Shown here piece by piece: positions 351-40,910 of a stretch of DNA of 45,563 bases. The translations under genes were made by a program, and so were the position numbers. The stretch lies in contig CALUVN010000012.1 in assembly GCA_944324235.1 (NCBI GenBank), positions 1 to 45,563 on the forward strand. Direction: 5' to 3'. The DNA comes from Candidatus Gastranaerophilales bacterium (GTDB lineage: Bacteria > Cyanobacteriota > Vampirovibrionia > Gastranaerophilales > Gastranaerophilaceae). Within the stretch, counting starts at the first letter, position 1; every line of letters begins with the position of its first letter. A model generated the notes under the pieces. It was not told where the DNA came from. It was given only the letters and a program-made list of their open reading frames with translations, and did no database searches.

Positions 351-355
351 GAGGC

Positions 356-458
356 GGATTTGCGGACGGACGACACGAAGTAAGTCCGGATAGCGAACGG
401 AACGAGACTACTAAGCCGCAGGCTTTTTGTCGAGTCTCCGTGAGCGTGGAGCAAATCC
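356..458. repeat. Structured dispersed repeat, copy 1
   Basis: A branched palindromic element. The outer stem GGATTTGC (356-363) pairs with GCAAATCC (451-458). Inside are a hairpin ending in GTCCGGA, an inner stem GAGACT/AGTCTC, and an apical hairpin AAGCC-gca-GGCTT. The same framework occurs at 39223-39330 and 39625-39732, where the closing stem reads GGATTTCC/GGAAATCC. That is a compensatory change on both sides, so base pairing appears to be maintained. It is followed by 'aagac', as in the other copies. The orientation of any transcript is unknown. Confidence 0.7.
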
Positions 459-484
459 AAGACAGGGGCAAACATAAGTTTGCA
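439..484. repeat. About 46-bp repeat, copy 1 (R3)
   Basis: This segment runs from the right side of the structured element through 'caagacagggg' to a GCAAAC-ATAA-GTTTGC hairpin. It recurs with few differences at 676-722. It overlaps the structured element and the start of R1, so the modules interlock. Confidence 0.65.
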
Positions 485-578: not shown

Positions 579-604
579 TACCCTCTCCTAAATAGGAGAG
601 GGTA
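579..604. repeat. Perfect 11-bp-arm hairpin
   Basis: TACCCTCTCCT (579-589), a four-base AAAT loop, and AGGAGAGGGTA (594-604) form a perfect inverted repeat. No T-run follows on the + strand, so it is not a canonical terminator. It looks like a small palindromic repeat unit. Confidence 0.7.
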
Positions 605-616
605 GGGTGAGGTATG

Positions 617-38239: not shown

Positions 38240-38963
38240 AAATAACATTTCCTAACGCAACAGTCACAGCAGTTTCAGCACGCAAAATTAAGTTTCCCAG
38301 TGTCAGCATGGCAACTTGAGGATTCGCGGCAAAATATTCAAATTCCCGTTCGCTGAACCCACCCTCAGGGCCAATGATTATAAGCACCTTTTCACCTTTT
38401 TTTACAGGTGTTTCTGAAGAAAATTCATGCAAACTCTTTTTTGCAATACGCTCACAAAAAGCGATAATTTTATCAAATTTCACTTCATCCAAAAGTTTTT
38501 GAATTTCAGTCATATTAAAACAAACAGGAATATCAGCACGTTCACACTGTTTTGAAGACTCATACATAATCCGCTGCCATTTATCAATCTTCTTTTCAAT
38601 AACAGATTTAGCAAGAGCGCAGTTATCAGTATAAATTGGATAAACACCGCTTACGCCTAATTCAGTAGCTTTTTCAATAAGAAAAGCCTGTGCATCACTG
38701 TTTCTGAGGGGAGATTGTGCAAGATAAAGTTCAAAATCAAGTTTTCTTGCAGATTGATACTGATTAGAAATATCCGCAACTATAGAATTTTGAGTAATTT
38801 CTTTAATAACAGTTTCGTACTGTACGGAATTTTCGTCAATTAAAAGGAGATTTTCGCCTAATTTTGCCCGTAAAGACTTAACGATATGATTGTAATTATC
38901 TTTATCACAAATAGTAACTGTATTACCTGTTACATTATTAGAATCAATAAAAAAATGCGGCAC
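38211..38963 (-). CDS. rsmE: 16S rRNA (uridine-1498-N3)-methyltransferase
   Basis: A 250-residue SPOUT-fold methyltransferase that modifies U1498 of 16S rRNA. VPHFFI at the N terminus, the IIGPEGGFSEREFEYF loop and LTLGNLILRAETAVTVALG trefoil knot are diagnostic. I start it at GTG 38963 because AAAGGAG lies 5 bases upstream; a TTG 15 bases earlier sits before that site. Its end overlaps the start of the nucleotidyltransferase gene, giving coupled translation. Confidence 0.9.
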   Translation of the reverse strand: MPHFFIDSNNVTGNTVTICDKDNYNHIVKSLRAKLGENLLLIDENSVQYETVIKEITQNSIVADISNQYQSARKLDFELYLAQSPLRNSDAQAFLIEKATELGVSGVYPIYTDNCALAKSVIEKKIDKWQRIMYESSKQCERADIPVCFNMTEIQKLLDEVKFDKIIAFCERIAKKSLHEFSSETPVKKGEKVLIIIGPEGGFSEREFEYFAANPQVAMLTLGNLILRAETAVTVALGNVIYEFENNKQN

Positions 38964-39018
38964 AATCGCTCCTTTCAATCTAATAATATACTAAACATAA
39001 AATAATTTAAAAAAGTGC

Positions 39019-39047
39019 TTGCAAAAAAAAAATCTTTATGTAATAAT
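39019..39047 (+). promoter_or_regulatory. tRNA-Gly promoter
   Basis: TTGCAA (39019-39024) and AATAAT (39042-39047), 17 bases apart, lie just upstream of the tRNA. This is a sequence match only. Confidence 0.5.
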
Positions 39048-39070
39048 AAATCTTGCGAAACGAAACATAA

Positions 39071-39145
39071 GCGGGGGTAATTCAGTGGTAGAATGCCTCC
39101 TTGCCAAGGAGGATGTCGCGAGTTCGAGCCTCGTCTCCCGCTCCA
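39071..39145 (+). tRNA. tRNA-Gly (GCC)
   Basis: A complete cloverleaf. The acceptor GCGGGGG pairs with CTCCCGC with one G-T pair. The anticodon loop CTTGCCAA gives GCC. The T arm (GCGAG-TTCGAGC-CTCGT) is normal, the discriminator is T and CCA is encoded (39143-39145). Its 3' end recurs three more times downstream. Confidence 0.97.
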
Positions 39146-39150
39146 TAAAG

Positions 39151-39177
39151 AAGCTCCACCATAGGTGGGGCTTTTTT
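39151..39177 (+). terminator. Intrinsic terminator after tRNA-Gly
   Basis: AAGCTCCACC, loop ATA, GGTGGGGCTT and a T-run (39172-39177). One T-G wobble. A slightly decayed copy recurs at 39553-39579. Confidence 0.85.
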
Positions 39178-39222
39178 ATGAGCAGAGATAATGGCAAGAA
39201 TTCGCCAATTGCGAAGTTCGGC

Positions 39223-39330
39223 GGATTTCCGGACGGACGATGCATAAAGTGCAAGTCCGGATAGCGAGGAAATTGAGCGGAGTTGAGCCAAAGGCTCAAT
39301 AGCAAAACTTTCCGAGCGTAGAGGAAATCC
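39223..39330. repeat. Structured dispersed repeat, copy 2
   Basis: A 108-base branched palindrome. The outer stem is GGATTTCC (39223-39230) with GGAAATCC (39323-39330). A hairpin with GGAC/GTCC (extendable to TCCGGAC/GTCCGGA) follows, then an inner GGAAA/TTTCC stem (39268-39272, 39309-39313) capped by TTGAGCC-AAA-GGCTCAA (39283-39299). The framework matches 356-458. It ends 6 bases before a copy of the tRNA-Gly 3' end. Confidence 0.75.
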
Positions 39331-39336
39331 AAGACA

Positions 39337-39352
39337 AGCCTCGTCTCCCGCT
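39337..39352 (+). repeat. tRNA-Gly 3'-end copy, first
   Basis: AGCCTCGTCTCCCGCT matches the tRNA 3' end from the T arm through the discriminator. The preceding 'caagacaa' differs from the tRNA. CCA is replaced by 'aat', and no tRNA 5' part is present. Confidence 0.85.
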
Positions 39353-39356
39353 AATT

Positions 39357-39391
39357 AAAAGACCGTAGGACTTTAGTTCTAACGGTCTTTT
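39357..39391. terminator. Long terminator-like hairpin
   Basis: AAAAGACCGT and ACGGTCTTTT are the outer arms; AGGACT/AGTTCT extends the stem inside with one G-T pair and a bulged A, giving about 16 pairs. A and T runs on both sides would let it act in both directions. Confidence 0.7.
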
Positions 39392-39408
39392 AATTTGTTG
39401 AGATAATG

Positions 39409-39526
39409 GCTTGATGAAGCCTTTTTGCGAGTTGCGCGAAGGAGCTGAGGCTGGAGCGCTTTTGCGATTGTGATGAAATCACATTAGCAAAACGCGAAAT
39501 GCCGTTACATGCGACTGAGCAAGACA
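39409..39526. repeat. Unrelated structured unit between tRNA 3'-end copies
   Basis: A hairpin GGCTT-gatg-AAGCC followed by TTTTT comes first. An outer stem follows (TTGC + AGTTGC against GCGACT + GCAA, one G-T pair), enclosing TTTTGC...GCAAAA with a GTGAT-gaa-ATCAC tip. It ends in 'gac' just before the next tRNA 3' copy, as the other unit does, though the sequence differs. Confidence 0.5.
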
Positions 39527-39547
39527 CGAGCCTCGTCTCCCGCTCCA
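39527..39547 (+). repeat. tRNA-Gly 3'-end copy, second (with CCA)
   Basis: 21 bases identical to the end of tRNA-Gly including the encoded CCA. The following terminator and structured repeat are also duplicated, with few changes, from the first set. Confidence 0.85.
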
Positions 39548-39624
39548 TAAAGAAGCTCCACCATAGATGGGGCTTTTTTATGAGCAGAGATAATGGTAAG
39601 AATTCGCCAATTGCGAAGTTCGAC

Positions 39625-39732
39625 GGATTTCCGTACGGACGATGCATAAAGTGCAAGTCCGGATAGCGAGGAAATTGAGCGGAGTTGAGCCAAAGGCTCA
39701 ATAGCGAAACTTTCCGAGCGTAGAGGAAATCC
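39625..39732. repeat. Structured dispersed repeat, copy 3
   Basis: A near copy of 39223-39330, with the same outer stem GGATTTCC/GGAAATCC. One change weakens the first internal hairpin (ccgtac for ccggac). The duplication distance is 402 bases. Confidence 0.75.
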
Positions 39733-39738
39733 AAGGCA

Positions 39739-39754
39739 AGCCTCGTCTCCCGCT
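39739..39754 (+). repeat. tRNA-Gly 3'-end copy, third
   Basis: AGCCTCGTCTCCCGCT again, followed by 'aattaaaa' as in the first copy, after which the duplicated region ends. Confidence 0.85.
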
Positions 39755-39812
39755 AATTAAAATAATCTCTTAATTGCTTTATTAACAATTTGCAGCAAGC
39801 ATTAATTGAATA

Positions 39813-40910
39813 TCACTTAAGAATATAATGAGTCGCACGCGCAGCGCCTTGTTTTATAAGAATATTCTTGTTGATTAAGTCAGTAATATCCCTATTTGCA
39901 GTATCGTGAGAACAGTTACAAATTTTTGCCCATTTTTGAGTAGTTAGATTACCTTCAAAGTCATTAAGCATTTTATTTAATATTTTAATCTGTCTTTCAT
40001 TAAAAGGCACTGATTTGTTAATACTCCAAAATTCAGCCTTTTTCAAAACATCATTTAGTAAATCATCAGAATCGTTAATTGCTGTAATCATATTTCTCAA
40101 AAACCAGTTTAACCATAATGTTATATCAACTGAATCCTTTTGTGTTAATTGTAAAACATCATAATATGATTTTCTTTCCTTTTTGATTTGAGAAGACATA
40201 GAGTAAAATCTATTAGAGGAATTTTCACTTCTCGCAAGCAATAAATCAGTTAACGCACGTGCAATTCTGCCATTACCGTCTTCAAAAGGGTGTATAATCA
40301 CAAACCATAAATGAACAATTCCTGCTTTAATAACCAGATCGGTTTTAGTATCATTATTTATAAAATTAATCAATCGTTCCATTTCAACGGGCAAAATTTC
40401 AGCCGGAGGTGCTTCATAATGAACTTTTTCATGACCTACAGCTCCTGACACTACCTGCATTACACCATTTTTATCATCTCTGTATGCTCCGACTTTAATT
40501 CTGTACAGTCCGCTCCTTCCAGCTGGAAACATTGAAACCTGCCAGCCGAATAACCTGTCTTCAGATACCGTTTTGTCAAAATTTAAAGTTGCATCCAGCA
40601 TCATATCAACTATCCCTTGCACATCACGTTCTACAAAAATATCTCCGCCAATATCTAGCCCCAGTCTGCGGGCTATAGATGAACGCACCTGCTCTACATT
40701 TAAACTTACGCCTTCAATTTCACTTGACTTGATAACATCTTCCGTCAAAACATTCAAAACTGTATGCCTGCTGTTTTCAAACCCAATTCTCTGCATTTTT
40801 GCAAGTAAAATTCCCTGCTTGAGGCGAACCTCTGATAACAACGGTAAAATAGCATCCTTATCATAGGTAAAATTAGGATATTCAGAATTTTGCCAGATAT
40901 ATTTTCTCAT
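39813..40910 (-). CDS. Fic-domain AMP-transferase-type protein
   Basis: A 365-residue protein. An N-terminal DUF4172-type segment (IWQNSEYPNFTYDKDAI) precedes the inhibitory helix motif SSEIEG (62-67, pattern S-xxx-E-G), the class that blocks the active site from the N-terminal side. The Fic core is HPFEDGNGRIAR with catalytic H207. The C-terminal 60 residues (LTTQKWAKICNCSHDTANRDITDLI) look like a winged helix that may bind DNA. It probably transfers AMP to a target, unknown. No ribosome binding site is seen near the ATG, and the promoter is packed with inverted repeats. Confidence 0.92.
   Translation of the reverse strand: MRKYIWQNSEYPNFTYDKDAILPLLSEVRLKQGILLAKMQRIGFENSRHTVLNVLTEDVIKSSEIEGVSLNVEQVRSSIARRLGLDIGGDIFVERDVQGIVDMMLDATLNFDKTVSEDRLFGWQVSMFPAGRSGLYRIKVGAYRDDKNGVMQVVSGAVGHEKVHYEAPPAEILPVEMERLINFINNDTKTDLVIKAGIVHLWFVIIHPFEDGNGRIARALTDLLLARSENSSNRFYSMSSQIKKERKSYYDVLQLTQKDSVDITLWLNWFLRNMITAINDSDDLLNDVLKKAEFWSINKSVPFNERQIKILNKMLNDFEGNLTTQKWAKICNCSHDTANRDITDLINKNILIKQGAARATHYILK

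Follow-up and report, generated by a model that had tools for sequence, protein, structure and literature searches.

Copied tRNA 3' ends frame short non-coding units in Candidatus Gastranaerophilales: a putative family of mobile elements

We analysed a window of 45,563 nucleotides (contig CALUVN010000012.1 of assembly GCA_944324235.1, Candidatus Gastranaerophilales bacterium) in which an intact tRNA-Gly(GCC) gene is followed by three short units, A, B and A', each closed by a further copy of the last 16-18 nt of the tRNA, its tail (Table 1). These units belong to what is apparently a large, undescribed and unnamed family of non-coding mobile elements in Candidatus Gastranaerophilales, whose parts, distribution and possible mode of movement we describe here.

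The tRNA-Gly(GCC) array

The three additional tail copies, which had been reported in an initial annotation of this DNA, are borne out: a 15-nt core of the tail, GCCTCGTCTCCCGCT, occurs just four times in the window, at 39128, 39338, 39530 and 39740, against an expectation of 0.00 in shuffled sequence. Every copy starts in the T-loop, directly after a body that ends in CAAGACA (AAGGCA in A'). The same annotation held that no 5' parts of the tRNA accompany the tails, which is correct for the acceptor, D and anticodon arms but fails for the T-arm, a copy of whose 5' strand adjoins each body on its 5' side. Units A and A' share 97% identity over 236 nt and repeat with a period of 402 nt, so that A' would most simply be a tandem duplicate derived from a block containing A and B. 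When positions 38900-39900 were scanned with Rfam, the tRNA alone reached its gathering score, and body B had no Rfam match.

Table 1. Features of the array, its downstream gene and a hairpin site (REP, repetitive extragenic palindrome) elsewhere in the window.
Feature	Position	Strand	Basis
Free body A, without tRNA, in REP-like hairpin	354..464	+	own-genome comparison of A copies
Empty REP-like hairpin	~580-605		comparison of filled and empty hairpins
tRNA-Gly(GCC), intact, CCA encoded	39071..39145	+	ARAGORN; Rfam RF00005
Terminator hairpin 1, resembling the terminator of a unit-less tRNA-Gly in genome G002 (L016)	39146..39179	+	sequence
Arm L of unit A, imperfect complement of tRNA tail	39180..39205	+	sequence; family-wide duplex test
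T-arm 5' strand copy and T-loop start (GCGAAGTTCG)	39211..39220	+	T-arm strand and join tests
Body A, ending CCAAGACA	39221..39336	+	sequence; join test
Tail copy 1	39337..39352	+	tail-copy survey; shuffled count
Terminator hairpin 2	39353..39395	+	inverted repeat I4
Arm L of unit B	39397..39422	+	sequence; duplex test
T-arm strand GCGAGTT	39427..39433	+	T-arm strand and join test
Body B	39434..39526	+	covariance model R1, E=3e-24
Tail copy 2, then CCA	39527..39544	+	tail-copy survey; shuffled count
Terminator hairpin 1', duplicate of hairpin 1	39548..39581	+	period 402
L, loop and T-arm strand of unit A'	39582..39622	+	repeat comparison with unit A
Body A'	39623..39738	+	repeat comparison with unit A
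Tail copy 3	39739..39754	+	tail-copy survey; shuffled count
DUF4172-Fic protein gene, directly downstream of array	39813..40910	-	Pfam PF13776, PF02661

A family of units with a common plan

Searching the window's own genome with this region recovered the same units behind tRNA-Asp, tRNA-Arg, tRNA-Ala and tmRNA. Units beside other tRNAs, which the initial annotation had proposed to look for, are present behind many tRNAs, each with its own tail copied: in loci mostly picked for carrying B, tRNAs for 15 amino acids (Ala, Arg, Asn, Asp, Gln, Glu, Gly, Ile, Leu, Lys, Met, Ser, Thr, Tyr and Val) carry them, as does tmRNA, while tRNA-Phe has a different insert of ~45 nt. A third kind of insert, a hairpin of about this length, occupies copied T-arms of tRNA-Tyr and tRNA-Phe as well as a copied anticodon arm of tRNA-Met (L233, L236 and L197). 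The parts, as read from the sequences, come in a fixed order. An intact tRNA and a terminator are followed by arm L, an imperfect reverse complement of the local tRNA's tail; next come a hairpin and the 5' strand of the T-arm together with the beginning of the T-loop, and then the body and the tail copy. Bodies of type A measure ~110-120 nt and those of type B ~91-97 nt, both ending in CAAGACA; a whole unit comes to ~160-210 bp (mostly 158-210 bp between tail copies), codes for no protein and contains no gene and no integrase.

A survey of 176 tRNA genes yielded 87 tail copies, none of which has an uninterrupted T-arm (0/87). Nearly all tail copies of A and B units follow a body ending in AAGA, AAGAC or AAGACA, and A and B bodies are interchangeable at a given tRNA. 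Removing the body rebuilds the T-arm exactly in 61 of 66 units (18/18 for A, 43/48 for B), with the body inserted after TT, TTCG or TTCGA; the body is therefore set into the T-loop of a partial second copy of the tRNA, without a flanking target-site duplication.

The frame around the body is matched to the tRNA that it follows. Arm L forms a more stable duplex with the tail of its own tRNA than with other tails (-19.7 against -15.1 kcal/mol, p=7e-9), swapping tails between units weakens the L:tail pairing (p=3e-5 for whole-unit folds), and the T-arm strand before the body matches the local tRNA (p=1e-9 for B, p=1e-4 for A), although related loci were counted as independent, so that these p-values are too small and overstate certainty. 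Frames group by tRNA and not by body type (frames of A against those of B, 0/500 permutations), and bodies resemble each other more across genomes at one and the same tRNA (0.854) than across the different tRNAs of a single genome (0.805; 0/1000 permutations). The possibility that L is a copy of the tRNA's 5' half was judged by eye and rejected, since for the arms at Gln, Leu and Ser the T-arm complement gives the better fit. In body B covariation is strong, with 115 double-change cells against 34±4 in shuffled alignments and at most 29 in slid controls, and the outer helix contains two tandem G-A modules.

Among 80 fetched loci, 45 of 85 B copies follow a tRNA or tmRNA of the same orientation at a nearly constant distance of 73-108 bp, and ~85-88 nt past the start of the B motif there is usually a copy of the adjoining tRNA's own tail; the loci were mostly picked for carrying B, and these rates do not estimate population frequencies. 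Of 130 genomes sampled from the window's family, a covariance model of B matched 111; it also matched one genome in another family of the order and none of the remaining ~160 sampled genomes of the phylum. Genomes apparently without B include G180, G188, G192, G200, G226 and G245. As up to 14 candidates were scored per genome, the true copy numbers may be higher, and false negatives may occur. BLAST placed a B unit behind tRNA-Asp in two order-level relatives (G029 and G034). Named records containing body B are assigned to Candidatus Gastranaerophilales, Melainabacteria, Cyanobacteria or just (uncultured) bacterium, with one exception labelled Clostridia. We found no copy in phage, plasmid and viral collections including IMG/VR, and no description of these elements in the open-access literature.

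Occupancy of the sites varies between species of one genus. At tRNA-Lys(TTT) of the window's genus, G002 carries an A unit and G003 a B-like one, while G000 and G001 lack a unit; at tRNA-Met, G003 carries an A unit that is missing from G001 and G002. For tRNA-Leu(GAG) a filled site (L084) can be compared directly with an empty one (L104), the same small gene following both. The initial annotation had named two outcomes that would speak against mobility, an identical array fixed in all strains and an absence of tRNA-flanked units elsewhere, and neither was found. Its proposal of non-autonomous mobility gains support from the retargeted tails, the species variation and the empty/filled comparison, and that of amplification from arrays of two or three near-identical copies, which point to growth by tandem duplication. 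The first terminator is part of the unit in some cases and of the locus in others: at Leu it is brought by the unit, while at the tRNA-Met of G003 it resembles the terminator of unit-less relatives.

Bodies also occur outside these frames. In the window's own genome, REP-like hairpins, of which there are at least two kinds, hold sixteen A copies in their 3' arm; a filled hairpin reads CCCTCTCCTAAGTAGGAG|A|(A)GGG.., an empty one in the same genome reads CCCTCTCCTAAGTAGGAGAGGG.., and empty hairpins of the form CCCTCTCCTAAGTAGGAG|AGGG exist. Free A bodies in such hairpins are nearly identical (window 354-464, L164-L177), and several lie close to the ends of contigs and may have caused breaks in the assembly there. 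A search for displaced tRNA halves, which covered B units and at best a minority of the A units, found body B in the T-loop of displaced halves of tRNA-Gly or tRNA-Ile at three loci (L054, 396-545; L276; L279); these halves begin in the anticodon loop, which is the form expected of ordinary island ends, and lack L. Together the REP-like hairpins and displaced halves suggest that the body moves independently of the frame.

Interpretation and alternative explanations

The elements share features with several known systems and differ from each. As with tRNA-targeting genomic islands (Islander, PMC4383910), an intact tRNA lies upstream and a copy of its 3' end downstream, presence varies between species, a regenerated tRNA with a displaced 3' fragment is found, and relatives have empty attachment sites (attB; L104 against L084 at Leu(GAG), and Met and Lys within the genus); unlike islands, the units are too short for an integrase gene, and they have tRNA-matched arms and carry their folded body within the displaced copy's T-loop. 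REP/REPIN elements moved by RAYT (PMC3116915, PMC8266576) are likewise short, palindromic, non-coding, dispersed and presumably mobilised in trans, but our units have tRNA-specific frames and their genome has no Y1 transposase (PF01797). IS110/IS1111 elements enter hairpin sequences such as REPs (PMC1525189) and encode a non-coding RNA with target-matched guides (bridge or seek RNA; PMC11208160, PMC11187229), whereas here the body is just ~91-120 nt and neither the unit nor the window's own genome contains a DEDD transposase gene. Miniature inverted-repeat transposable elements (MITEs) are also non-autonomous, palindromic and multi-copy, but the exact joins of our bodies show no target-site duplication, and no related autonomous transposon was found in a search of the own genome for Y1, IS110 and reverse transcriptase domains, other transposase families not having been searched.

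The same searches bear on candidate movers. Y1 transposase is rejected by its absence from the window's own genome, as are the IS110 DEDD transposase (present in 5 of 39 genomes searched) and RVT_1 reverse transcriptase (reverse transcriptases in 17 of 39 genomes searched). As to the integrase that the initial annotation proposed to look for, the own genome has XerC and XerD (checked by sequence) and two minimal tyrosine recombinases. G002, which carries units, and G008, which carries A and B bodies, each have just two tyrosine recombinases, presumably XerC and XerD, and a tyrosine recombinase beyond these is accordingly rejected as a required partner. The two minimal recombinases (L184 and L185, on contigs C16 and C51 of G000) are 183 and 166 aa long in the lists of open reading frames (ORFs), and the one that was scanned gave no match to an N-terminal domain.

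The mobile-element idea of the initial annotation is right in outline, and to its more specific form, that these are two-module, non-autonomous, non-coding mobile elements whose body is placed in a T-loop or REP-like hairpin, we give an even chance. The first module, the frame, would be a duplicated 3' fragment of the local tRNA (T-arm and acceptor 3' strand), placed behind a terminator and the inverted partial self-copy L and thus able to fold as a hairpin; it may have originated as a scar of site-specific integration at the tRNA 3' end. The second, the body, would be a folded element that occupies exactly the T-loop of this spare fragment or else, in REP-like hairpins, the 3' arm. The body would be the moving part, which an enzyme acting in trans would insert into a hairpin in single-stranded or cruciform form, and recombination between tail copies would enlarge the arrays. 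Several points weigh against this. Empty frames would be expected if the body comes second, and no body-less frame is found among the 87 tail copies; the searches, which did not extend to serine recombinases or to transposases beyond Y1 and IS110, yielded no moving enzyme; the three displaced-tRNA cases can be explained instead as deletions between T-arm repeats; the comparisons are all between species-level genomes, mostly metagenome-assembled; and the statistical tests carry the overstated certainty mentioned above.

The whole unit might instead, as the initial annotation proposed, be a mini-element flanked by attachment (att) sites that a tyrosine recombinase acting in trans, whether XerC/XerD or a lost helper integrase, placed at the 3' end of the tRNA; we consider this possible if on balance unlikely. 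The tail copy spans the stretch from T-loop to 3' end that Williams reportedly described in 2002 as a classic integration sublocation. Genomic islands leave a restored tRNA gene and a displaced fragment (PMC4383910), and the Leu(GAG) pair, the two minimal recombinases and the absence of body-less frames all fit this explanation. It does not readily accommodate one body type serving tRNAs of 15 amino acids with arms fully retargeted, the exact placement of the body in the T-loop, bodies in REP hairpins and in displaced halves without L, genomes with two tyrosine recombinases only, or the failure to find a phage or plasmid carrier. Much of this also tells against the plain tyrosine-recombinase insertion, leaving one flanking copy, that the initial annotation had envisaged: three target-matched pieces (L, T-arm strand and tail) recur for many tRNAs, and the body lies exactly in the T-loop without duplication.

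The strong covariation and the L:tail pairing would also suit functional RNAs kept beside tRNAs as minihelix-like decoys or regulators of the upstream tRNA, the tail copy serving pairing, but every unit stands behind a terminator, related species lack units, the same A body is multi-copy in REP hairpins and body types swap at one tRNA, making this explanation improbable. We regard as very improbable a retro-mobility in which the unit RNA is copied back into DNA at tRNA tails: the structured unit with its tRNA-like 3' end and the reverse transcriptases of other genomes would allow it, but the own genome has no reverse transcriptase even though A is multi-copy there. tRNA genes can undergo tandem duplication, and the units could in principle be decayed duplicates that gained inserts by chance; that the copies lack acceptor, D and anticodon arms, and that boundaries, body ends and distances are uniform at unrelated tRNAs, contradicts this and makes it scarcely credible.

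On the two-module reading, the units would belong to an established kind of element, mobile, non-autonomous and located at the 3' ends of tRNAs, to which a hairpin- or T-loop-directed insertion step would be added. More speculatively, and we think probably wrongly, they could be non-coding elements that enter hairpins (T-loops of spare tRNA tails, REP arms) without target duplication, in which a co-adapted, complementary L mirrors the target, pairing and not a fixed att site picks it, and a host or other enzyme moves them in genomes without a dedicated recombinase. The family exploits many kinds of tRNA gene as a landing place across a gut-bacterial lineage and leaves the tRNA intact; if the arms do choose the target, this would be a new route to hairpin-directed insertion, and such elements would account for short repeats at contig ends that mimic tRNA fragments.

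Neighbouring genes and adjoining sequences

The DUF4172-Fic gene directly behind the array is a possible cargo candidate. Fic- or RhuM-like genes, judged by eye, also lie at tRNA sites in L104, L065, L138 and L279, and may be recurrent cargo. The 3' part of an ORF (..VDKLPNMEPF..YSELISIMKQST.EYYNMR..) directly precedes the Leu-type unit at L104, L113, L114, L128 and L033, where the DNA of the ORF end resembles the tRNA-Leu tail. At L073, L101, L108 and L130 a recurrent motif like ATCAAACCATGTGNNTTTTACA, possibly the end of an insertion sequence, lies next to truncated B copies.
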